From Nitrospirota bacterium (lineage in GTDB: Bacteria > Nitrospirota > JACRHL01), in NCBI GenBank assembly GCA_016212085.1, contig JACRHL010000019.1:248001-312000 (forward strand): 64,000 nt of DNA, written 5' to 3'. The position numbers and the translations under genes are program-made. Below, piece after piece: positions 5,138 to 33,263 of the stretch. Numbering within the stretch: position 1 is the first letter of the stretch; the number at the start of each line of letters is the position of its first letter. A model generated the notes under the pieces. It had not been told where the DNA came from. It was given only the letters and a program-made list of their open reading frames with translations, and searched no databases.

Positions 5138-5750
5138 CGCTATGGACACCGTGGACGCCCACATGGAAACCGCCACCCGGTTGGAAACCGCCACCCACAT
5201 CGAGATGGCCGACACGGTCACGCGCCTGCTCGCCCTGCTGGGCGAGGACACGGACCGCGAGGGGCTGCTGCGCACCCCCATGCGGGTGGCCAAGGCCCTG
5301 GACTTCCTCACCTCCGGACACCGCATGACCCTGGCGGACGCGGTGGGCGACGCCCTGTTCGACGTGGACTACTCGGAGATGGTGATCGTCAAGGACATCG
5401 ACTTCTACAGCCTGTGCGAGCACCACATGCTGCCGTTCTACGGCAAGGCCCACGTGGCCTACCTGCCCAAGGGCAAGGTGGTGGGCCTGTCCAAGCTGCC
5501 GCGCATCGTCGACATGTTCGCGCGCCGCCTCCAGGTGCAGGAACGCATGACCCAGGACATCGCCCGTGCCGTGCGGGAGGCGGTGGACCCCCACGGCGTG
5601 GGGGTGGTGATCGAGGCCTCCCACCTGTGCATGATGATGCGCGGGGTCGAAAAGCAGAACAGCCGCACCACCAGCAGCGCCATGCTGGGAACCTTCAAGG
5701 ACGACCCGAAGACCCGCACCGAGTTCCTCACCCTGCTCGGCCGCGCCTGA
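5130..5750 (+). CDS. folE: GTP cyclohydrolase I
   Basis: A 206-residue protein of the FolE family, which converts GTP to 7,8-dihydroneopterin triphosphate. The zinc ligands are visible: Cys96 and His99 in LCEHHMLPF, and Cys167 in HLCMMMRG. The spacing of 71 between the cysteines equals that of E. coli FolE (110 and 181). The conserved KVVGLSK and RVQVQERMT-like segments are also present. The first 30 residues are variable and rich in repeated ET(A)T motifs, so the true start could be a later Met. It overlaps the tandem PTPS gene by 8 bases and feeds it. folB lies 2.4 kb downstream, so folate, biopterin or queuosine precursor supply are all possible uses. Confidence 0.95.
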
Positions 5751-20688: not shown

Positions 20689-23600
20689 ATGGCTATGGCT
20701 ATGGAACAGGTTCACTACGACGTCATCGTGGTGGGGGCGGGGCCGGGCGGGGTGACCGCCGCCGCCACCGCCGCCCGCGCCGGCGCCTCGGTGCTGCTGC
20801 TCGAGGCCGGGGCCTTCGCCGGGGCGGAAAACTGGTCCGGCTGCGTCTACTTCGCCGAGAGCCTGCTGCACCCGGACGCCTTCGGGCCCGACGCCATCCA
20901 CGCCGCCCCCTTCGAGCGCCGCCTGGTGAAGCGCGGCGTGGGCCTCACCGACGGCGAGACCCTCATCGCCGCCAGCATCCACGACGCGGACACCTTCTCC
21001 CACTGCTACACGGTGCTGCGCCCGGTGTTCGACCCCCACTGGGCGGAGCTGGCGCGCGGCCTGGGCGCCACGGTGCTGGCCGACACCACCGTCACCTCCC
21101 TGATCCGCCGCGACGGGCGCGTGGTGGGGGTGCACACCAGCCGCGGCCCCGCCTATGCGGACATCACCTTTCTGGCGGAGGGCGACGCCTCGCACCTGGT
21201 GCGCCACGAGGGGCTGGAGCGGGTGGCGGAGCCGGGCTTCAGCCAGGGCGTGAAGGCGGTCTACCGGCTGGGCCCGGACGAGATCCAGCGGCGCTTCGGG
21301 GTGGCCCCCGGCGAGGGCGCCGCCAACGAGGTGATCGTGCGCAACGCCAGCTTTGGCGGCCGCTCCCTCAAGCTCAACATGGCCGCCTTCGTCTACACCA
21401 ACCGCGACACCCTGTCCGTGGGCTACGCCATGCCCCTGGCCAACCTGGCCAGCCAGTACCGGGGCCGCCACGAGGAGCTGCTGGCCCACGTGGCGCGCAT
21501 GCCGGGCATCGCCGAATACCTGGAGGGCGCCGAGCTGTCCGCCTTCGGCGCCAAGCTCATCCGCACCGGCGGCATCACCCGCGCGCCGCGCCTGGTGGAG
21601 GACGGCCTGGCGGTGGGCGGCGCCGCCGCCGCCTTAGGGATAGACGCCCCCTACCCCAACTTCACCGGCCCCGCCGCCGCCACCGGCCTCTATTTCGGGC
21701 GCGCGGTGGCCACCCTGGCACGCACCGGCCAGGCCCCCACCCAGCGCAACCTGAGGGCCGCCTACCTGGAGCCGCTGAAGGCCTCGCGCTACTGGAAGGA
21801 CGCGGAGGCCCTGAAGGCGTGGCCCGACTTCCTGGAGCACACCGCCACCTTCTTCGGCCCGGTGGTGGACGTGGCCTGCGGCACCACCCGCTACCTGACC
21901 GACCGGGGCCCCTACTGGACCCGCGCCTGGAACACCGCCCGCCTGCTGCGCGACCACCTGGCCCCCCGGCGGCTGGGGGCGATGCTGGGCGACAAGGCGC
22001 GCATGGGCGCCGCCCTGGGCGCCACCCCGCACCTGCGCAAGGTGCTCCGCCTCAAGGGCCTGGGGCGCATGGCCGTGAGCAGCGTGAAGCGGCCGCCCAG
22101 GGCCCCCGGCGGGCTGTCCGTCACCATCCGCGTGAACGGCGAACACCGCGACCTGGGGCGCCTGCCCCTGGGCCTGCGCGGCCCGGCGCGTCGCCAGCTC
22201 GCGGGCATCGGCCAGGCGCTGGCGGCGGTGTACCGCAACGGCGCCCAGCCCTTTGCCGAGCGGGTGGCCGAGGGGGTGGACGCCGTCACCGGGCGGCTGC
22301 GCCTGCTGGACCTGCTGCTGGCGGGGGCCGCGGGGGCGGGGCTGCTGCTCACGGCGCTGCTCACGGCCCTGTACGACCTGTTCCGCTTCAAGGTGCTCAA
22401 GGTGCCGGCGGAGCAGGTGCTGGACAACCCGGTCAACCGCGACAACGCGCGCCTGAAGGCCCTGCGCGAGCTGGAGGGGCGGCCCGACACGGGCGCCATG
22501 GCGGCGCGCCTGGCCACCAACACCTACCGCCCCGGCGCCACCCCGCACATCCGCGTGCTGTGGCCCGACACCCTGCAGGCCCACTCCAGGCTGGCGGACG
22601 CCCCCTACTGGTCCGTGTGCCCCGCCGGGGTGTACGCCTTCGCGCCGTCCCTGGCCGGCCACGGGCTGGTGACGGTGAACCACGAGAACTGCGTGAAGTG
22701 CGAATCGTGCTGGCAGTCGGCGCCGGACGGGGTGCTGTGGGGCCGCCACACGGACCACCAGCTCATCTACCGGCCGCACAGCGCCGCCCTGGACGTGGCG
22801 CCGCCCGCGCCCCCCGCCCAGGCCCCCAACCGGCCGCGCCTCACCCCCCTGCCCACCCTGCCGGACGGCATCCGCCGCCAGCCCCGCTTCGTCACGGCGC
22901 TGGACGACCTGGCGCGCCTGAACGCCCGCGCCCGCGCCGCGCTGGTCGCCTTCGAGGTGGCGGTGGACAACCTGCCCCCCGCCGCCGACCGGGGCCGCAC
23001 CGCCTGGCCGGAGCGGGTGGCCCGGGCCGCCCGTCACCGCCTGCACGCCCTCGAGGCGGCCCTGAGCGACGGGCCGGCGGGCCGCATCCCCGCCGCCGCC
23101 GGCATGCCCCGGTCGCCCTTCGCGCCGCTCATCGGCGTGCTGGAGGAGGAGGCGGGGCGCCTGTCCGCCCTGCTGGCCACGCGCAACCTGTTCGAGGCGG
23201 CGGTGGCCTCCCGCCGCATCCGCGAGACGGTGCTGGACCCGCTCTCCGTCACCCTCCAGGAGCCGCTTCCGGCGCCCCGGCACCCGGCCACCCGGCCATG
23301 CCCGGACGCCACCGCCCAAAGCCCCGCCGAGGCCGCCCTGCGCGCCCGCTTCGGCGATCAGGCCGTCAAGCGCTGGGACCGGGAGGGCATCGACGCCACC
23401 GACGCCACCGCCCTGTGCGCCCTGTTCGACGCCCTGCCCGCACCCGGCGCCGCCGATCCGCTGCCCGCCGCAACCCTGGCCGCCCTGCGCGCCTGGGCCG
23501 CCCTGCACTCCGGCGTGGCCCTGCTGGCCCTGCACCGGGTGGCGGCAAACGCCCTGGGCATCGCGGGCGGCGCCCTGGCGGATGGCTCCGAGCTGACGGC

Positions 23601-26600
23601 CGGCGGCGCGGGGGCCCTGTCCGGCACCCTGGCGCTGGTGCCCGCGCGGCTGGCGGAAACGCTCATCGTGCTGCGCGGCGGCCAGCTTGCCATCCTGCCG
23701 CTGGACGGCCCCGGCGTCACCCGCCGCGCCGTGCGCGCCGGCGGCATGCACCCGGCGGGCTTTTCCACCATCACCCTCGACAACGCCCCGGCCCAGGCGC
23801 GCCCCCTGCCCGCCGAACTGGCGGCGTTCCTGCCCCACGCCTGCGGCGCCATCGCCCTGGGCGCCGGCGACTACCTGGCCCGGCGCGCGGTGGAACAGGC
23901 CCTGGGGCGCATCCAGTTCCCCGGCCAGATGCAGGATCCGGCGGGGCACGACAGCATCGCCAAGTTCGGCGCCGTCAAGGCCCTGGTGGCGCGCACCCTG
24001 GCTTGGCGCGAGCTGCTGGACGGCGTGGCGGAACGCGCCCTGTCGGACGGCGCCGGCCTGCCGCCGGACCTGCTGCCGGCCCTGGCCCGGATGGCCTTCT
24101 CGCCCAGGAACGGCCGCATGGGGTACGACGCGGGTCAGGTGTTCGGCGGCACCGGCTACTCGGAAGACGAGCAGATGAGCCGCTGCTACCGCGACAGCGC
24201 GGTGTTCCCGCACCTGCCGCCGGCGCTGGGCGCCCTGGAGCGGCTGGCCGCCTGGTGGCAGGAGTCCGACGCCCCCCTGGCCGCCCGCGTGGTGGCGGAC
24301 GACGACACCTTCGCCGATCTGTCCGGCGGCCCCCTGGCGGACCACCTTGCCCAGTGGCAGGACGCCGCCGCGCGCATCGACGCCCTGGCCATCGCCTCGG
24401 AACCGGCGCGGGAGGCGCTGGCCCTGGCCATCGCCTGCTACCACCAGATGACGCGCGTGGCCCGGCGCCTGGAGGCGGGCCTGCCGGTGGAGGGCGAGGC
24501 CGCCGCCCTGGAGACCCTGCTGGGCATCCTGGCGGACCTCATCGCCCAGGCCCAGGGGGAGCAGGGGGGGCCGGCGCCCGCCTTGGCCCACTTCCCGGAA
24601 CTGCCGGACCGGGATGCAAGGCCCCTGGCCCTGTCCTACGACGCCCTGATCCACATGGACGACCCCTACGAGTCCGGCGACTTCCTGCGCAAGCCCCCCG
24701 GCGGCCCGCCGCGCTTCATCCCCGAGATCCAATTGCACGACCCGGAACTGCGCGTCACCTGGGAACAGTGCTACCGCTGGTTCCTGGAGCACTGTTCCAA
24801 GGCGCCGGACGATGGCGGCTTCTATGAGCACTACATCGAGCGCCGCCACACCATCCCGGCGGAGATGCTGGAGGGCTTCAAGCAGAACGGCATGTTCGCC
24901 AGCGTGGTGCCCGCGCGCCTGGACGGCCTGGGGTGGAAGAAGATCGGCTACTACCTGCTGGTGTCCGGCGCCATGCGCCACGGCGACGCGTCGCTGTCGC
25001 TGCTCATCATGGCCAGCACCAGCATCGGCACCACCCCGGCGCTGATCGGCCTGGACAAGGAGATCCCGCTGGTGGAGCACGAGCTGGGCGCGTTCCGCGA
25101 CGACCCGGCCCGGCTGGGGGCCATCGCCGAGGGCCTCGCCGCCGTGGTGGCCCAGCTTGCCAGCCCCGACCCCAAGAAGCTGGAGCGCGACGTCACCGCC
25201 CTGGCGGACAAGGTGGACGCCACCATCCGCCGCACCAAGGTGGTGAAGTACCTGGCCCAGAACTTCCTGATGGCCTTCTACGGCGCCGCCCTGGCCGGCC
25301 GCCGCAAGGACTTCGGGGCGTTCTCCAGGGGGCTGCGCGAGGCCCAGGAGCGCCTGCGGCCGCTGCCGGACACCCTCCTCCAGGCACTCGCCGAGCTGCC
25401 GCGCCGGCGCCGCGCCGCCGAGCAGTTTTTGCGCGCCCTCGGCCACGGCGCCGTGGCGGGCTTCGCCCTCACCGAGCCCACCGCCGGGTCCGACTCCGGC
25501 GGCGTGACCACCACCGCGCACCTCAAGGAGGTGCCCGTCACCCTCATGGGCGACGGCCGGTACCGCTTCGAGATCGACGGCAGGGAGCGCTTTTTGCTGG
25601 ACGCGGACCGCATCGTGTTCGGCCGCGTGGGCACGGACGGCACCTTTAACCCCGGCACGGAGCGGGACGGCCTGGGGGCGCGCTTCGGCGACCCAGCCCC
25701 CGGCGCCTACGGCCACGGGGTGGCCATGGGCTACCGCCTGCAGGACGGCGCCATCGCCCCCATCTCCCACGCGGGCTACGACCACGCCACCGACCGGGGC
25801 ACCCGCACCGTGCGGGTGCGGGAGGACGACCTGCCGTTCCACGACATCGCCCAGGTGCGCGATGGCAACCGCTACGCCTTCTACGAGGTGTCCGGCGCCA
25901 AGATGTGGATCACCAACGGCCGCGTGGCCACCCAGTTCTCCATGTACGTCAAGACCGACGAGGGCATCACCGGGCTTCTGGTGGACCGCCACGCCGAGGG
26001 CCTCATCGTCGGCCGCGACGAGGAGAAGATGGGCCAGCAGGGCTCCCCCACCAACGAGCTGTCCATCGACCGCATGCGCGTCCCGCGCGAGAACGTCATC
26101 GGCTACGAGGGGCACGGCCAGGTGAACGCCCTGGAGACCCTCAACGTGGGCCGCTGCGGCCTGGCGGTGGCGGGGGTGGTGATGACCCGCCGCATACTGG
26201 TGGAGGCCAAGGCCGGCCTGCCCCCCTCGGACCGGCGCGACCGGGCGCTGGCGGAGGTGGCGGCCAGGGTGTTCGCCAACGAGTCCCTCGCCTTCCACCT
26301 GGTGGGGCGCTTCGACAACAAGGCCACCCGCTCCGTGCGGCTGGAGAGCGCCATCGCCAAGTACGCCTGTTCGGAACTGCTGCACGAGGCGCTGGACCGC
26401 ATCGAGCCCCTGTGGGGCCCCATCGGCCAGACCCGCGACATGCTGGTGGAGAAGATGCGCCGCGACGCGCGCATCCTCAACATCTACGAGGGCACCAACG
26501 AGGTGCAGCGCTTCCTCATCCTGCGCGAGCTGTGCGCCATGGCGGCGGACTGGCCGGAGCAGGACGCCGAATCCGGCCGCCTGGCCGCCCTGGCAAGCTG

Positions 26601-28719
26601 GAAGAACACCCTGCGCCGGACCGTGGCCGAGGCCGTCGCCACCCTGGGCGACGCCGTGTGGCAGGACGCGGCCATGCAGCCCGCGTTCTTCCCCCTGGCC
26701 GAGATGGCGGGGGAACTCTACCTGCTGGACACCACCCTGTACCGGCTGGAATGGATCGCCGGCCACCGCGCCGTGCTGGGGGCGGACTACGCCGATCCCA
26801 TGACCGCCACCGGCGAGCGCGCCGTCACCCAGTGCCTGGCGCGCCTGCAAGCGCTGCACGACCGCTACGACCGGGGCCGGGCCCACGCCCTGGCCAGCCG
26901 CTACCCGGCCGAGGCGGTGGCATCCGACGCGGCCATGGAGCCGCACCGCATGGCCGCGCCCCGGCCCGCGCCGCTGGCCCGCAAGGCGGCCATCACCTGC
27001 CTGCTGCGCCCGGTGGCGGTGCCCGCCCCCACCCCCCGGCTGAACGCCCACGGCCACCTGGCGGAGCGGGTGTGGCGGGCCAACCCGGCGGATGCCCACG
27101 CCCTGGCCCAGGCGCTGGCCCTGCGCGCCGGCGCCGCCGCGCCGGTGTCCGTAGCCGTGGCAAGCTGCGGCGGCCCGGTGGGTGAGCGCCTGCTGCGCGA
27201 GGCCCTGGGCGCCGGCGCCGACCGCGCCGTGCTGCTGGACCTGCCCGCCCAGGCGGCACCGGCCGCCTGGGCGGACGCCCTGGCCGGTTCGCCGGAGGCG
27301 GACGCCGCCGACCTGATCCTGTGCGGCGCCACCAGCGCCGACGCGGACGCCCCCCTGGGGCCGTTCCTGGCGGGCCGCCTGGGCCGCGCCCTGTGCCTTG
27401 GCGACAGCCTGTCCACCCGCGCCGGGGGGGCGGAACTGCTGGCGGACGGCGCCCCCCTTCCCGAGGGGGCGCTGCTCGCCCTGGCGGACGGCGGCGCCCG
27501 GCCGCTGCCCACCCTGGCCGGCATGGCCCGCGCCATGGCGGCGGCCATCGCCCCGCCCGGCGGTGCCCACGGCGCCCCCACCTTCGAGCGCGCCGCCGCG
27601 AGCGGCGACGGACAACGGACGGTCACCACCGTCGACGGCGGCGCCGAGCTGCTCAGGCACTTCGCCGAGTCCGCCCGGCGCATGGCCGCCGCCCCCTACG
27701 GCGGCGAATGGGAACAGCGCCCACACCCCGCCGACGGCGTGTGGGCGCTGGCCCAGGCCCACGAGGCCCAGGCGGTGGTGGCGTTCCGCGCCGCCCGCGA
27801 GCTGGCGGACGCCCTGGGCCTGCCCGCCTTCGCCCTGGCCAGCGGCAACGCGGCGGGCCTCCGCCGCCTGGCGGGCGCCGCCCAGGGCGCGGGCATCACC
27901 CTGTGCCTCGGCATCGACACGGCAGGGGTGGCCCTGTCCGAGTCCGGCCGCCGCGCCCTGCTGGCCTCGGTCATGAAGGGCCGGGGCGGGGCCGCCACCC
28001 GCGTGGTGGCCCCCGCGCCGTGGGCGGCCGCCCTGGGCTTCGTGGCGGGCACCCTGGGCACCGGCCCCGTGGCCCTGTCGGGGGTGACCGGGGTCAGCAT
28101 GGATGGCGGGCGCATCGCCGTGCGCCGCGCGGCCTACGGCGGCACCCTGTCCGCCGTCACCCGCCATCCGGATGGCGCCTCCCTGTGGCTGGCGGTGGAC
28201 GCCACGGCCCCCTTCACCGGCGGCGCGCCGGTGGCCGGCTTCGCCCTGGCGCGCCCCGCCGGGCCGCGCCTCGCCCCGGCCGACCTGGACCCGCATTTCG
28301 CGCTGCCCGTGGCCGACCTGCGCACGGCGGAGGTGATCGTCGACATGGGCCTGGGCGCCGGCAGCGAGGCGGGCCTGAGGCTGGCGCGGGAGCTGATGGA
28401 GGCCCTGTCCGCGCTGTCCCTCTCCCCGCACCTGGGGGCCACCCGCAAGATCACCCAGGGGCTGGGGCTGCTGCCCCAGTCGCACCAGATCGGCCAGACC
28501 GGCGTGGCGGTGAACCCCAAGGTGATCCTGGCCCTGGGCATCTCCGGCGCGCCCCAGCACACCGACTACATCGGCGGCCGCGCCCACGTGCTGGCCTTCA
28601 ACAAGGACCCGGACGCGCCGCTCATGAGGCTCACCCGCCCCGGCTGCACCGTGCACCCCATCGTGGGCGACCTGTTCGACACGGTGCCCGAGCTGATCCG
28701 CCGCCTGCGCCGGGAATGA
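20689..28719 (+). CDS. Giant fusion: ETF-quinone oxidoreductase + ferredoxin + two acyl-CoA dehydrogenase domains + ETF beta + ETF alpha
   Basis: One open frame of 2,676 codons without a break. (1) 1-520: FAD-dependent FixC/ETF-QO domain, GAGPGG at 16-21, ENWSGC at 46-51. (2) A hydrophobic helix at about 540-565. (3) 600-700: ETF-QO-type 4Fe-4S domain, cysteines 644, 668, 671, 674 in VCPAGVY and NCVKCESCW; spacing matches ETF-QO. (4) About 880-1200: degenerate acyl-CoA dehydrogenase with GGTGYSEDEQ near 1153, but YRDS where the catalytic YEGT Glu would be. (5) About 1310-2070: acyl-CoA dehydrogenase with FALTEPTAGSDSGG, SGAKMWITNG and IYEGTNEVQR (Glu1934), plus insertions. (6) About 2090-2300: ETF-beta-like. 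(7) About 2305-2676: ETF alpha, with the FAD motif GISGAPQH and FNKDPDAPL. Expected to carry electrons from an acyl-CoA to quinone in one chain. AAGGA overlaps the first ATG; ATG 20695 or 20701 may be the used start. Confidence 0.88.
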   Translation: MAMAMEQVHYDVIVVGAGPGGVTAAATAARAGASVLLLEAGAFAGAENWSGCVYFAESLLHPDAFGPDAIHAAPFERRLVKRGVGLTDGETLIAASIHDADTFSHCYTVLRPVFDPHWAELARGLGATVLADTTVTSLIRRDGRVVGVHTSRGPAYADITFLAEGDASHLVRHEGLERVAEPGFSQGVKAVYRLGPDEIQRRFGVAPGEGAANEVIVRNASFGGRSLKLNMAAFVYTNRDTLSVGYAMPLANLASQYRGRHEELLAHVARMPGIAEYLEGAELSAFGAKLIRTGGITRAPRLVEDGLAVGGAAAALGIDAPYPNFTGPAAATGLYFGRAVATLARTGQAPTQRNLRAAYLEPLKASRYWKDAEALKAWPDFLEHTATFFGPVVDVACGTTRYLTDRGPYWTRAWNTARLLRDHLAPRRLGAMLGDKARMGAALGATPHLRKVLRLKGLGRMAVSSVKRPPRAPGGLSVTIRVNGEHRDLGRLPLGLRGPARRQLAGIGQALAAVYRNGAQPFAERVAEGVDAVTGRLRLLDLLLAGAAGAGLLLTALLTALYDLFRFKVLKVPAEQVLDNPVNRDNARLKALRELEGRPDTGAMAARLATNTYRPGATPHIRVLWPDTLQAHSRLADAPYWSVCPAGVYAFAPSLAGHGLVTVNHENCVKCESCWQSAPDGVLWGRHTDHQLIYRPHSAALDVAPPAPPAQAPNRPRLTPLPTLPDGIRRQPRFVTALDDLARLNARARAALVAFEVAVDNLPPAADRGRTAWPERVARAARHRLHALEAALSDGPAGRIPAAAGMPRSPFAPLIGVLEEEAGRLSALLATRNLFEAAVASRRIRETVLDPLSVTLQEPLPAPRHPATRPCPDATAQSPAEAALRARFGDQAVKRWDREGIDATDATALCALFDALPAPGAADPLPAATLAALRAWAALHSGVALLALHRVAANALGIAGGALADGSELTAGGAGALSGTLALVPARLAETLIVLRGGQLAILPLDGPGVTRRAVRAGGMHPAGFSTITLDNAPAQARPLPAELAAFLPHACGAIALGAGDYLARRAVEQALGRIQFPGQMQDPAGHDSIAKFGAVKALVARTLAWRELLDGVAERALSDGAGLPPDLLPALARMAFSPRNGRMGYDAGQVFGGTGYSEDEQMSRCYRDSAVFPHLPPALGALERLAAWWQESDAPLAARVVADDDTFADLSGGPLADHLAQWQDAAARIDALAIASEPAREALALAIACYHQMTRVARRLEAGLPVEGEAAALETLLGILADLIAQAQGEQGGPAPALAHFPELPDRDARPLALSYDALIHMDDPYESGDFLRKPPGGPPRFIPEIQLHDPELRVTWEQCYRWFLEHCSKAPDDGGFYEHYIERRHTIPAEMLEGFKQNGMFASVVPARLDGLGWKKIGYYLLVSGAMRHGDASLSLLIMASTSIGTTPALIGLDKEIPLVEHELGAFRDDPARLGAIAEGLAAVVAQLASPDPKKLERDVTALADKVDATIRRTKVVKYLAQNFLMAFYGAALAGRRKDFGAFSRGLREAQERLRPLPDTLLQALAELPRRRRAAEQFLRALGHGAVAGFALTEPTAGSDSGGVTTTAHLKEVPVTLMGDGRYRFEIDGRERFLLDADRIVFGRVGTDGTFNPGTERDGLGARFGDPAPGAYGHGVAMGYRLQDGAIAPISHAGYDHATDRGTRTVRVREDDLPFHDIAQVRDGNRYAFYEVSGAKMWITNGRVATQFSMYVKTDEGITGLLVDRHAEGLIVGRDEEKMGQQGSPTNELSIDRMRVPRENVIGYEGHGQVNALETLNVGRCGLAVAGVVMTRRILVEAKAGLPPSDRRDRALAEVAARVFANESLAFHLVGRFDNKATRSVRLESAIAKYACSELLHEALDRIEPLWGPIGQTRDMLVEKMRRDARILNIYEGTNEVQRFLILRELCAMAADWPEQDAESGRLAALASWKNTLRRTVAEAVATLGDAVWQDAAMQPAFFPLAEMAGELYLLDTTLYRLEWIAGHRAVLGADYADPMTATGERAVTQCLARLQALHDRYDRGRAHALASRYPAEAVASDAAMEPHRMAAPRPAPLARKAAITCLLRPVAVPAPTPRLNAHGHLAERVWRANPADAHALAQALALRAGAAAPVSVAVASCGGPVGERLLREALGAGADRAVLLDLPAQAAPAAWADALAGSPEADAADLILCGATSADADAPLGPFLAGRLGRALCLGDSLSTRAGGAELLADGAPLPEGALLALADGGARPLPTLAGMARAMAAAIAPPGGAHGAPTFERAAASGDGQRTVTTVDGGAELLRHFAESARRMAAAPYGGEWEQRPHPADGVWALAQAHEAQAVVAFRAARELADALGLPAFALASGNAAGLRRLAGAAQGAGITLCLGIDTAGVALSESGRRALLASVMKGRGGAATRVVAPAPWAAALGFVAGTLGTGPVALSGVTGVSMDGGRIAVRRAAYGGTLSAVTRHPDGASLWLAVDATAPFTGGAPVAGFALARPAGPRLAPADLDPHFALPVADLRTAEVIVDMGLGAGSEAGLRLARELMEALSALSLSPHLGATRKITQGLGLLPQSHQIGQTGVAVNPKVILALGISGAPQHTDYIGGRAHVLAFNKDPDAPLMRLTRPGCTVHPIVGDLFDTVPELIRRLRRE

Positions 28720-28822
28720 CCCCCCCTTCCAGGGCCGTGTGGCGCTTGGCGAAGCGGCATCCGATCCGCTACCATGCGAGACATTCCGGTTCCGCCAAAC
28801 GCATGTCGAGGTATCACGCATC

Positions 28823-29053
28823 ATGGCCGAGCGCAAGGAGGTCGACGCCCGCGGCATGGCCTGTCCGGGCCCGCTGATCGCCCTGATCAGCGCCCTGAAG
28901 ACCGTGGAGGTGGGCGACGAAGTGGAGGTACTGTCCACCGACCGGGGTTCCAACAAGGACATCGCCACCTGGCTGAACAAGGCGGGCCACCAGTTGGTGG
29001 AGTCGGAGCAGTTGGCCGACCACATCCGCTTTCTCGTCAGGAAACTCAGGTAG
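28823..29053 (+). CDS. tusA: TusA-family sulfur carrier/sulfurtransferase
   Basis: 76 residues with the conserved CPGPL motif (Cys14), the persulfide-carrying site of TusA/SirA proteins. A GAGG lies upstream of ATG 28823. In sulfur oxidisers, TusA homologues move sulfane sulfur between SQR, rhodanese and heterodisulfide-reductase-like enzymes; in other bacteria TusA serves tRNA thiolation. The position directly before sqr, 12 bases apart, favours the dissimilatory role. It lies 103 bases downstream of the giant ETF fusion gene. Confidence 0.88.
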   Translation: MAERKEVDARGMACPGPLIALISALKTVEVGDEVEVLSTDRGSNKDIATWLNKAGHQLVESEQLADHIRFLVRKLR

Positions 29054-29065
29054 AACGGGGAGACC

Positions 29066-30205
29066 ATGACCACGCGCATTCTGATCGTGGGCGGCGGCCT
29101 GGCCGGAACCATCGTCGCCAACGGCCTGTGCCGCCAACTGGGGCGCGAGCTGGCCAAGGGCGCGGTGAACATCACCATGCTGGGGGCCGACGAGCGCCAC
29201 CTCTACCAGCCGGGGCTGCTCTACATCCCCTTCGGCCGCATGCGCGAGGCCGAGCTGTTCCGCGAGCAGCGCAAGGTGCTCAGCCACCACGTCTATTTTC
29301 ACGTGGACCCGGCCACCGCCATCGACGTGGACGGCCGCACCGTCACCACCGCCTCCGGCAAGGAATACGGTTACGACTACCTGGTGCTGGCCACCGGCTC
29401 GCGCATCACCCCCGAGGAGGTGCCCGGCATGGCCGAGGGCGCCCACTGGTTCTACGACCTGGCCGGGGCCCGCCGGCTGCGCGAGGCGCTGGGCGTCTTT
29501 ACCGGCGGCCGCATCGTGGTCAACGTCAACGTGCCCCACAAGTGCCCGGTGGCCCCGATCGAGGTCACCTTCATGCTGCACGACTTCCTCAAGGAGCGCG
29601 GCCTGTGGGACAAGACCGAGCTCACCTACACCTACCCCATCGGCCGCCTGCACGGCCTGGAGCCGGTGGCCAACTGGGCCCAGCCCGAGATGGACCGGCT
29701 GGGCATCAAGTACGAGACGTTCTTCAACGCCGAGTCGGTGGACCCCAACGCCCGCACCGTCACCTCCATGGAGGGTTCCACCCTGCCCTACGACCTGCTC
29801 ATCACCATCCCGCCCCACAAGGGGGCGCAGGTGATCGAGAACTCGGGGCTGGGCAAGGGCGGCTGGGTGGCGACCGACAAGAAGACCCTGCACCGGGTGG
29901 GATCGAACAACGTGTTCGTGGTGGGCGACACCACCGACATCCCCATCTCCAAGGCCGGCTCCACCGCCCACTTCGAGGCCGACACCCTGGTGGACAACCT
30001 GGTGTCCCTCATCCAGGAGGGGTGCATGGCCCGTGAGTATGACGGCAAGGTGTTCTGCTTCATCGAGGCGGGCCTGAACCGGGGCACCTACGTGTGGTTC
30101 AACTACCAGGTGCCGCCCAACCCGGTACCGCCGTCCAGGATGGTGCACTGGTTCAAGCTGGCCTACAACCGCATGTACTGGCTGTCCGCCCGCGGGCTGA
30201 TGTAA
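29066..30205 (+). CDS. sqr: Sulfide:quinone oxidoreductase (FAD-dependent, SQR-like)
   Basis: 379 residues of the pyridine-nucleotide-disulfide oxidoreductase fold. IVGGGLAG marks the first FAD segment, VLATGSR the second, and VFVVGDTTDIPISKAG the third. Cys160 in VPHKCPVAPIE and Cys331 in VFCFIEAG are the redox pair expected for SQR. No cysteine occurs near the first position of type I enzymes (about 128), so it fits a two-cysteine subtype (type III-like) or a related flavocytochrome. It oxidises sulfide to polysulfide or S0 and reduces quinone, peripherally bound to the membrane. It follows tusA and precedes a DUF1641 gene, a recurring trio in sulfide oxidisers. RBS GGGGAGACC. Confidence 0.9.
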   Translation: MTTRILIVGGGLAGTIVANGLCRQLGRELAKGAVNITMLGADERHLYQPGLLYIPFGRMREAELFREQRKVLSHHVYFHVDPATAIDVDGRTVTTASGKEYGYDYLVLATGSRITPEEVPGMAEGAHWFYDLAGARRLREALGVFTGGRIVVNVNVPHKCPVAPIEVTFMLHDFLKERGLWDKTELTYTYPIGRLHGLEPVANWAQPEMDRLGIKYETFFNAESVDPNARTVTSMEGSTLPYDLLITIPPHKGAQVIENSGLGKGGWVATDKKTLHRVGSNNVFVVGDTTDIPISKAGSTAHFEADTLVDNLVSLIQEGCMAREYDGKVFCFIEAGLNRGTYVWFNYQVPPNPVPPSRMVHWFKLAYNRMYWLSARGLM

Positions 30206-30717: not shown

Positions 30718-31503
30718 GTGGCGGACCGCCCGCGCATGCCCGTGCTGTTCGTGGGCCACGGCTCGCCCATGAACGCCATCCAGGACAATGCCTGGAGCCG
30801 GGGCTTCGCATCCCTGTCCAAGGGCATCCCCACCCCCGCCGCCATCCTGGCCGTGTCCGCCCACTGGTACCTGGACGGCACCTTCGTCACGGCCAACGCC
30901 CGGCCGCGCACCATTCACGACTTTGGCGGCTTCCCGCCGGAGCTGTACCGGATAAGCTACCCGGCGCCGGGCAGCCCGGCCCTGGCGGAGCGGGTGACCG
31001 ACCTGCTGCCGACCGCCCGCCCGTCCGACACCTGGGGGCTGGACCACGGCACCTGGAGCGTGCTGCTGCGCATGTTCCCCCTGGCCCAGATTCCCGTGGT
31101 GCAGCTATCCATCGACCGGCGCCTGGAACCTACGGACCACGCCGCCCTGGGCCGCGCCCTGGCCCCCCTGCGCGACGAGGGCGTCCTGATCCTGGGCAGC
31201 GGCAACGCCACCCACAACCTGCCCGACGCCTTCGCGCGCATGCGCTCGGGCCAGACCGCCACGCCCGACTGGGCCCAACACTTCGACAGCGCCGTGGCCG
31301 ATCTGACCCAACGCCACGACACCAACGCCCTGGCCGCTCTGTGGCCCGACAGCCCCAACGCCAGGCACTGCCACCCCACGCCGGACCATTTTTTGCCCCT
31401 GGTCTACGCCTGCGCGGCGGCGGATGCGGACGATACGGTGAGTTTTCCCATCACCGGCTTCGACATGGGCTCCCTGTCCATGCGGGCGGTCAGGTTTGGG
31501 TAG
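30718..31503 (+). CDS. ygiD: LigB-family extradiol dioxygenase (YgiD/4,5-DOPA dioxygenase-like)
   Basis: 261 residues, GTG start. The metal ligands of the class III extradiol ring-cleaving fold are visible: GHGSPMN near residue 14, SAHWYL near 50, and the HCHPTPDHFLPL segment near the C-terminus, with GSGNATHNL between. E. coli YgiD shows extradiol activity on catechols such as L-DOPA; the natural substrate is uncertain. It is 6 bases after the DUF1641 gene, though no link to sulfur metabolism is apparent. It converges with the orphan gene at 31541. Confidence 0.88.
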   Translation: MADRPRMPVLFVGHGSPMNAIQDNAWSRGFASLSKGIPTPAAILAVSAHWYLDGTFVTANARPRTIHDFGGFPPELYRISYPAPGSPALAERVTDLLPTARPSDTWGLDHGTWSVLLRMFPLAQIPVVQLSIDRRLEPTDHAALGRALAPLRDEGVLILGSGNATHNLPDAFARMRSGQTATPDWAQHFDSAVADLTQRHDTNALAALWPDSPNARHCHPTPDHFLPLVYACAAADADDTVSFPITGFDMGSLSMRAVRFG

Positions 31504-31540: not shown

Positions 31541-33199
31541 TTACCGCGATGCTCGCGTACGCAGATGCGCGGGCATCGACCCCACCACAACCTCCCGTCG
31601 CTCCGCATCCCAGAAGAAGTAGATGCGCAGGCATCGGGCCTCGTCCCGCGCGTTCCCCCTCTTCAGGTGCATGTCCATGTACTCATTCCGCCCCTTCCAT
31701 TGGACGAAGTAGGTATCGCCGTGCTCGCCCCAGCGGTCACCGGAAAAAGAGGGCTCGCACTGAAGGCCCAGTTCCCGTAACCGGTCCTGGAACGTGTCCC
31801 ACGCGCCGTCTCCTATTCCGCGCTTCATGTCGCAGTACTCGTGGGCCAGGAGCAGCAGGGCTTTGTATGCCAGGGGCACGTCCTGGTACCTGGCGCTCTT
31901 GGCCGCTCGTGCGGCCCGTTCATGCACGGTGAGGCGTCCTGCGAGGTGCTTGTTCGTCCATGCCTGTAACTCGTCCAGGGAGTCGGGGATGTCGATCGTG
32001 GCATCCGTGGGACGATCTGCCGCGTTCAGTTGCGCCTCAAGCACCTCAAGGCGGGCGCTCAACCGGTAGGCGTAAGCGGCCTGTTCGTCCCGCTCACGCT
32101 CCAACTCCAGGCGTTTGGACTCCACCTCTTCCGCCAACTCCTCGGCGGCACCCAGGTTGGCCTTCAGGTCCTTCACCTGAGCGAGGGCGAGCGCCAACTG
32201 TTCATCGACGGCGCCGGACTGCGCGGCGTCTTTCCGCTTGCGCTCCAGGCTGAGTTGCTTGATCTTGGGAAAGGGCGGAAGCTCTCTTTCCAGGTTGGGC
32301 CGCCGGGTGTTGTGGGTGAAGACGTTGCCGATGACGAACCGTTCGAAGTCGGCAGCCCCGTTCGGGCCCCATTCCGCGATCCGACCCGGCAGGGCCAGGG
32401 GGTGGCTGAACGGTCGGTCCAAGAACGGGGCGAAGCCGGGCAGGTAGGTGCGAACGGCACCATCGAAGACGGAGTATGTCTTCCCAATCTGATCGGTGAA
32501 GGAGTAGCTGACCGGCCCGGGGAGCACCGCAACGTGCGCGATTCCAAGGCATTGCACAGCTAGCTTGTTCACATCCACCAGCGCGGAGGCGGGATCCTGT
32601 TCGGACTCGGGAAGCGAGACGACGATAACGGGACGGGTCCGGCGCGGGTTGGTGAGCAGCCGGACAAATCCGGTTACGTCATCCTCGCCCAGCAAGACCA
32701 CGGGTTGTTCGGTCAGGCCCACGCCGTAGTCCAGAAGGCCGGGGGCCTTGGCGATCTGGCGGACGATGCCTGGTATGCTGGGCTCGAACTCCAAGGCGTC
32801 CCCGGGCGCGGAAACCAGCAGGCGAAGCCCGAAGAGCGCATCCCTATCACCCCGTGCGACGGCAATCTCGATCGTCCACACCCGCCCCGGAACGTCCTTG
32901 TCGTGATCGTCGAGCCGAGCACACCAGAAGTCGCCGCTCTCATCCAGCGTGACCACCTCGGCCGGCTTCCCAGGCGTCGCCAGTTCGAAGGGTCTGCCCT
33001 CCCACGCCTCGTCGGGCAGTTTTCCGGCCCGCGGCTGCATCCACTTGAGGCAATGTGTTCGCGCCACCTGAACGGCGGCGTCCTTGTCATCACCCCCAAG
33101 CTGGGCAGTGATCTGAACCACGTGACGGACCCGGCGCTCGGGACGCCTGCTCTCGACAAAAGGGCGGAGTTGGTCGGCGAGAGTTCTTGCAGCGTTCAT
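31541..33199 (-). CDS. Orphan protein of unknown function with a central coiled coil
   Basis: 552 residues from ATG 33199, chosen because AAGGAAA precedes it; the frame opens 14 codons earlier. I do not recognise a family. The first 300 residues are globular, with a beta-rich part (VWTIEIAV, GLRLLVSA) and a segment around VIVVSLPESEQ. Residues about 320-400 are charged and heptad-like (KRLELERERDEQAAYAYRLSARLEVLE), a likely coiled coil. The C-terminal 110 residues form a compact domain ending in LRIYFFWD and VVVGSMPAHL. By eye the region is less GC-rich and its codons are more mixed than its neighbours. It is flanked upstream by an inverted repeat (33264-33408). The setting suggests horizontal acquisition; similar orphans occur in defence or mobile-gene contexts, but no defence partner is present. 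Confidence 0.6.
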   Translation of the reverse strand: MNAARTLADQLRPFVESRRPERRVRHVVQITAQLGGDDKDAAVQVARTHCLKWMQPRAGKLPDEAWEGRPFELATPGKPAEVVTLDESGDFWCARLDDHDKDVPGRVWTIEIAVARGDRDALFGLRLLVSAPGDALEFEPSIPGIVRQIAKAPGLLDYGVGLTEQPVVLLGEDDVTGFVRLLTNPRRTRPVIVVSLPESEQDPASALVDVNKLAVQCLGIAHVAVLPGPVSYSFTDQIGKTYSVFDGAVRTYLPGFAPFLDRPFSHPLALPGRIAEWGPNGAADFERFVIGNVFTHNTRRPNLERELPPFPKIKQLSLERKRKDAAQSGAVDEQLALALAQVKDLKANLGAAEELAEEVESKRLELERERDEQAAYAYRLSARLEVLEAQLNAADRPTDATIDIPDSLDELQAWTNKHLAGRLTVHERAARAAKSARYQDVPLAYKALLLLAHEYCDMKRGIGDGAWDTFQDRLRELGLQCEPSFSGDRWGEHGDTYFVQWKGRNEYMDMHLKRGNARDEARCLRIYFFWDAERREVVVGSMPAHLRTRASR

Positions 33200-33263
33200 G
33201 GCATTTCCTTCATGGAAGTTCACGATCGACTGACACGGCAACCCCTATCCCAGCTCGTAGCTC

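Follow-up and report, generated by a model that had tools for sequence, protein, structure and literature searches.

A probable single-chain acyl-CoA:quinone oxidoreductase in Nitrospirota with a candidate composite acyl-CoA dehydrogenase site

The transfer of electrons from acyl-CoA to quinone is split in other organisms among several separate proteins that dock to one another. Within this step, ETF is the textbook mobile carrier, collecting electrons from many dehydrogenases. The mitochondrial acyl-CoA dehydrogenase (ACAD), ETF and ETF-quinone oxidoreductase (ETF-QO) follow the same electron route as that proposed here for a single fused protein, but in that system the soluble and the membrane components are distinct proteins, and ETF diffuses. 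FixABCX, or EtfABCX (Thermotoga maritima, PDB 7koe), has in common with the fusion a FixC-type flavoprotein, a FixX-type ferredoxin, EtfB and EtfA homologues, and a quinone acceptor. It is however made of four separate subunits, is driven by NADH and bifurcates electrons, whereas the fusion is one chain with an inserted ACAD and a degenerate EtfB nucleotide motif. Bcd-EtfAB and CarCDE are stable ACAD-ETF complexes, which are among the best PDB matches of the EtfA and ACAD domains of the fusion; they differ in having separate subunits, in being NADH-linked and bifurcating, and in lacking a quinone module.

Two further systems bear on the ACAD part. In CasC of Rhodococcus jostii two ACAD domains are fused, of which the N-terminal serves FAD binding and the C-terminal carries the catalytic Glu (PMC8399759). 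The fusion has the same division of labour within one chain, as known from its motifs, but CasC acts on bile-acid CoA esters, and its description mentions neither ETF nor ETF-QO parts. ChsE4-ChsE5 is an α2β2 complex with one FAD per catalytic/non-catalytic pair, in which the β (non-catalytic) subunit holds the ADP-ribose of the FAD (PMC11153573). This complex consists of two polypeptides, acts on steroid side-chain substrates and has no fused electron chain. Every part of the fusion is of a known kind, and the combination is without precedent in the literature searched (most subscription journals being outside its scope), where no description of the full fusion was found. AadN was considered as a precedent and rejected, as it is an unrelated Nfn fusion.

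The fusion gene lies in the window, by which we mean the whole stretch of 64,000 nucleotides that was analysed. The preliminary description reported one open reading frame of 2,676 codons at 20689-28719 on the forward strand, with coordinates, strand and length all correct, and the frame is uninterrupted. Met5 of the window copy is the start position in relatives, and the codon at 20701 may be the real start. GC at the third codon position is 0.94–0.99 in every 200-codon block of the gene, including the two regions (22,300-23,400 and 26,900-27,600) in which continuity of the frame had been flagged for checking. A Pfam search with a 2,514-residue antisense ORF matched 0 families. As read from the sequence, the domain order is FixC-type ETF-QO, hydrophobic stretch, FixX/ETF-QO [4Fe-4S] domain, pseudo-ACAD, active ACAD, EtfB-like and EtfA. 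The features are as follows.

20689..28719, + strand: whole fusion gene, 2,676 residues (possible true start 20701, Met5)
20701..21996, + strand: FixC/ETF-quinone oxidoreductase-type FAD flavoprotein, residues 5-436 (7koe_C match, invariant GxGxxG)
22291..22383, + strand: hydrophobic stretch, residues ~535-565, candidate membrane anchor (conserved hydropathy)
22498..22776, + strand: FixX/ETF-QO-type [4Fe-4S] domain, residues ~604-696 (four Cys, profile matches)
22786..23343, + strand: poorly conserved linker, residues ~700-885 (21-39% identity to the window copy, no family match)
23341..24243, + strand: pseudo-ACAD, middle and C-terminal domain, residues ~885-1185 (hhalign, PDB, Foldseek, motifs)
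23908-23919, + strand: RIQF, in the pseudo-ACAD
24136-24150, + strand: QVFGG, in the pseudo-ACAD
24676..26658, + strand: active ACAD, residues ~1330-1990 (hhalign, Pfam, motifs)
26488-26490, + strand: predicted catalytic Glu1934, in the active ACAD
26986..27723, + strand: EtfB-like domain with degenerate nucleotide motif, residues ~2100-2345 (5ol2_B, 2e-16)
27724..28716, + strand: EtfA-like domain with intact FAD-binding motif, residues ~2346-2676 (profile matches, PF00766)

All the components claimed in the preliminary description are present in the single chain, with their cofactor residues kept. The residues that it named (G16/G18/G21, Cys644/668/671/674, YRDS at 1167-1170 and Glu1934 of IYEGT) are right, as is the EtfA FAD motif near the C-terminus (GQTG/SGAPQH, ~2602-2624), and all are invariant in nine full-length homologues. 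The HMM searches that it proposed gave Pfam matches to ACAD_C (3e-25), ETF_alpha (1e-18), ACAD_M (2e-16), ETF (2e-12) and FAD_oxidored (9e-12). Its "two ACADs" hold as two ACAD regions, which are better read as complementary halves of one enzyme than as two separate ones.

The fusion-specific central part was found in 19 of 396 sampled Nitrospirota genomes, from three families, with an open frame of 2,647-2,760 residues where contigs permit. Nine members are full-length and align over their entire span, with 42-57% identity to the window copy, and ACAD, ETF-alpha and FAD-oxidoreductase matches are found in all nine. Recurrence in relatives had been set as a test of the fusion, and the architecture is conserved there. 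A public carrier is 'Nitrospirae bacterium WY3.bin154'. The fusion query gave 0/794 matches at 1e-6 in 399 genomes of the phylum of Azospirillum and 395 of another phylum, and 25 assorted genomes contained ordinary ACADs only; no fusion was found in viral contigs, and 0 plasmid records covered 80% of the protein. These counts come from samples, and a wider occurrence is possible. Frames of 1,124-1,140 residues resembling ACAD-Etf fusions in three genomes (G016, G047 and G030) proved to be adjacent separate genes.

The conservation of the frame across separate assemblies shows that the fusion is not an assembly error. One relative (G003) does have an in-frame TAG in its FixC part (L022, ~5198-5200), at a position that is Trp in a close relative, and this could be taken to suggest that neighbouring genes were wrongly joined in assembly or annotation. 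The probability of such an artefact is negligible, as an identical single frame recurs in many independently assembled genomes and the coding signature is uniform; the TAG may be a recent nonsense change or a sequencing error. The other incomplete copies are cut by contig ends, or in one genome (G024) by an N gap. It could also be proposed that one chain is translated and then cut into ordinary FixCX, ACAD and ETF subunits, since the weakly conserved residues 401-600, 701-1000 and 2201-2500 could carry cleavage sites. This we consider unlikely: neither a protease nor a cleavage motif was found, and the segments are joined in one frame, at similar lengths, in 9/9 members.

The ACAD pair is the most informative part of the protein. 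In ordinary ACADs, the C-terminal domain has RxQ/AF about 94 residues before YEGT, plus GGxGY, and these motifs face the adenosine end of FAD across the ACAD dimer. The active ACAD (hhalign 100%, 1e-46) has the ALTEPxAGSD motif and keeps YEGT, KMWITN and TEPxAGSD in 9/9 members, and RxQF and GGxGY are absent from their place in all nine. The pseudo-ACAD matches canonical ACADs by hhalign (96%, 2.9e-9) and ACADs in the PDB (8.5e-5), and PF00441 matches the region in 9/13 carriers (best 2.5e-7). It has the reverse pattern, 9/9 members keeping RxQF and QxFGG and lacking YEGT with its catalytic Glu, KMWITN and TEPxxGSD. The canonical ACAD set was chosen by KMWITN and YEGT, which leaves the RxQF and GG counts as its only independent ones. 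By motif, then, one ACAD has the catalytic Glu and the other has the FAD adenosine contacts, as in CasC and the ChsE type.

The invariant adenosine-end motifs of the pseudo-ACAD are exactly those missing from the active ACAD. On this basis the two regions probably make up a single active site, like those of CasC and ChsE4-ChsE5, with the pseudo-ACAD as one half of it. The preliminary description had assigned the pseudo-ACAD the role of a scaffold. On that account the enzyme would be the same, with the pseudo-ACAD purely structural and the active ACAD making its own FAD site, and degenerate paralogues commonly act as scaffolds. We think it improbable that the pseudo-ACAD is a mere scaffold, given that the active ACAD is without these motifs in every full-length member and that the pseudo-ACAD keeps them though otherwise much diverged; the kept RxQF and QxFGG would hold the FAD of the partner at its adenosine end.

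AlphaFold was run on the ACAD pair (residues 760-1955) with a three-row alignment, giving a pLDDT of 39.5, and the model was discarded. The model of the pseudo-ACAD has a pLDDT of 61 (moderate confidence), and Foldseek with this model gave a top TM-score, among the 50 matches listed, of 0.59, to 4x28_C from the ChsE4-ChsE5 complex. This fold match is supportive only, since the alignment behind the model contained ACAD rows and was biased toward the ACAD fold. A direct profile comparison of pseudo-ACAD and active ACAD gave no significance, and in a quick tree the active halves form one group and the pseudo halves another. These results do not support a recent tandem duplication. The window copy has a unique insertion of ~31 residues inside the active ACAD (~25633-25725, residues ~1649-1679).

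At the N-terminus, residues 5-436 match residues 3-437 of 7koe_C, the FixC of T. maritima EtfABCX, over the full length (E = 5e-48), which identifies a predicted FixC-type flavoprotein. The hydropathy of residues ~535-565 peaks above 1.6 in 9/9 full-length members. In the [4Fe-4S] domain, Cys644, 668, 671 and 674 are invariant in 9/9 members, and there are profile matches to ETF-QO (2gmh, 7.8e-4) and to FixX (7koe_D, 0.028, weak). The domain is assigned as a ferredoxin on the Cys spacing and these two matches, despite a Fer4_ETF_QO score of 17.7 bits, which is under the Pfam cut-off of 24 bits.

At the C-terminus, the EtfA-like domain matches CarE (3e-25), human EtfA (4e-22) and PF00766 (1e-18), and has the C-terminal FAD domain with GQTG/SGA expected of an ETF alpha. 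In the EtfB-like domain the Gln of the DGDTAQVG motif is lost in 9/9 members; four Nitrospirota genomes have a separate EtfB in which the motif is intact. It is therefore unlikely that the EtfB of the fusion binds a nucleotide, or that there is a second ETF or bifurcating flavin, and electron bifurcation is argued against. The nearest solved relatives of the parts are FixABCX (7koe) and the CarCDE and Bcd-Etf complexes, which could suggest an NADH-using complex that bifurcates electrons or reduces enoyl-CoA. We regard this as very unlikely: in addition to the missing Gln, NADH would be unnecessary with a fused ACAD as electron donor, and the presence of FadB and thiolase genes implies oxidation.

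On the basis of these observations, we hypothesise, with a probability of roughly 0.78, that the fusion acts in β-oxidation as an acyl-CoA:quinone oxidoreductase made of a single chain, probably attached to the membrane, and that it has a composite ACAD FAD site. From the sequence we infer its activity, cofactor occupancy, composite FAD site, membrane attachment, direction, substrate, and tethered transfer or channelling, in the following scheme. Acyl-CoA would bind to the active ACAD, where Glu1934 would take the α proton. The hydride would pass to a FAD held by the active ACAD at the flavin end and by the pseudo-ACAD at the adenosine end, giving one active site per ACAD pair. Electrons would then move singly to the FAD bound by the EtfA domain at the C-terminus, and from there to the N-terminal FixC/FixX module, with its [4Fe-4S] cluster and third FAD, and on to quinone at the membrane. 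The fixed, channelled electron transfer suggested in the preliminary description is plausible.

The gene content of the carriers was also analysed. The EtfA of the fusion is the sole EtfA of the genome in 8 of the 12 carriers tested (G000-G003, G298, G162, G232 and G264), and all ACAD matches in G000-G003 and G264, which include the family of the window, are the fusion itself. The enoyl-CoA hydratase domain is kept in 13/13 genomes tested, and FadD-like AMP-binding genes are present in 12/12. G000 and G162 were confirmed to carry the FadB form (ECH+3HCDH), with thiolase directly upstream in both (the thiolase frame in G000 by motif evidence); in G162 the two genes are ~6.7-10 kb downstream of the fusion. 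Since no other ACAD or EtfA genes were found while FadB, FadD-like and thiolase genes are present, the gene content leaves the fusion as the one candidate identified for the initial oxidation in β-oxidation in the organism of the window. Besides the fusion, the f5 genomes tested encode ACAD and EtfA in genes of their own. In two f5 loci (L148 and L151), located elsewhere in the genome from the fusion, the separate EtfA has an N-terminal ferredoxin-like Cys motif and adjoins a separate EtfB; in L151 a separate ACAD gene is also beside them.

Several neighbouring genes may be recorded. In G162, genes that look cytochrome-like or membrane-associated, judged by eye from the starts of the sequences, lie between the fusion and thiolase/fadB (L142, 1779-7602). 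A cytochrome oxidase is also encoded in the window. Directly downstream of the fusion are genes for a TusA-like sulfurtransferase (28739-29053, +) and then a type III sulfide:quinone reductase-like protein (29066-30205, +); a functional link of these with the fusion is unlikely, because other genes follow the fusion in G002, G003 and G162. Further on are a 4,5-DOPA-extradiol-dioxygenase-family protein (30718-31503, +), above the NCBIfam cut-off, and a 565-residue protein (31541-33241, −) that matches the PADLOC candidate defence family HEC-07 (5.9e-173) and has no Pfam match.

With the fusion, the entire ACAD-ETF-ETF-QO relay can be studied structurally on a single chain, and whether ETF transfers electrons while tethered or by diffusing can be tested directly on one protein that can be purified. 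The fusion also appears to extend the split-ACAD design beyond steroid degraders. Its ETF seems to be tied to a single dehydrogenase and a single quinone reductase. With less confidence than for the general reading, we lean towards a respiratory acyl-CoA-to-quinone enzyme, complete and obligately fused in one chain, membrane-attached, with three FADs, one [4Fe-4S] cluster and a composite ACAD, which would replace the diffusing ETF and would be the only such route of its hosts.
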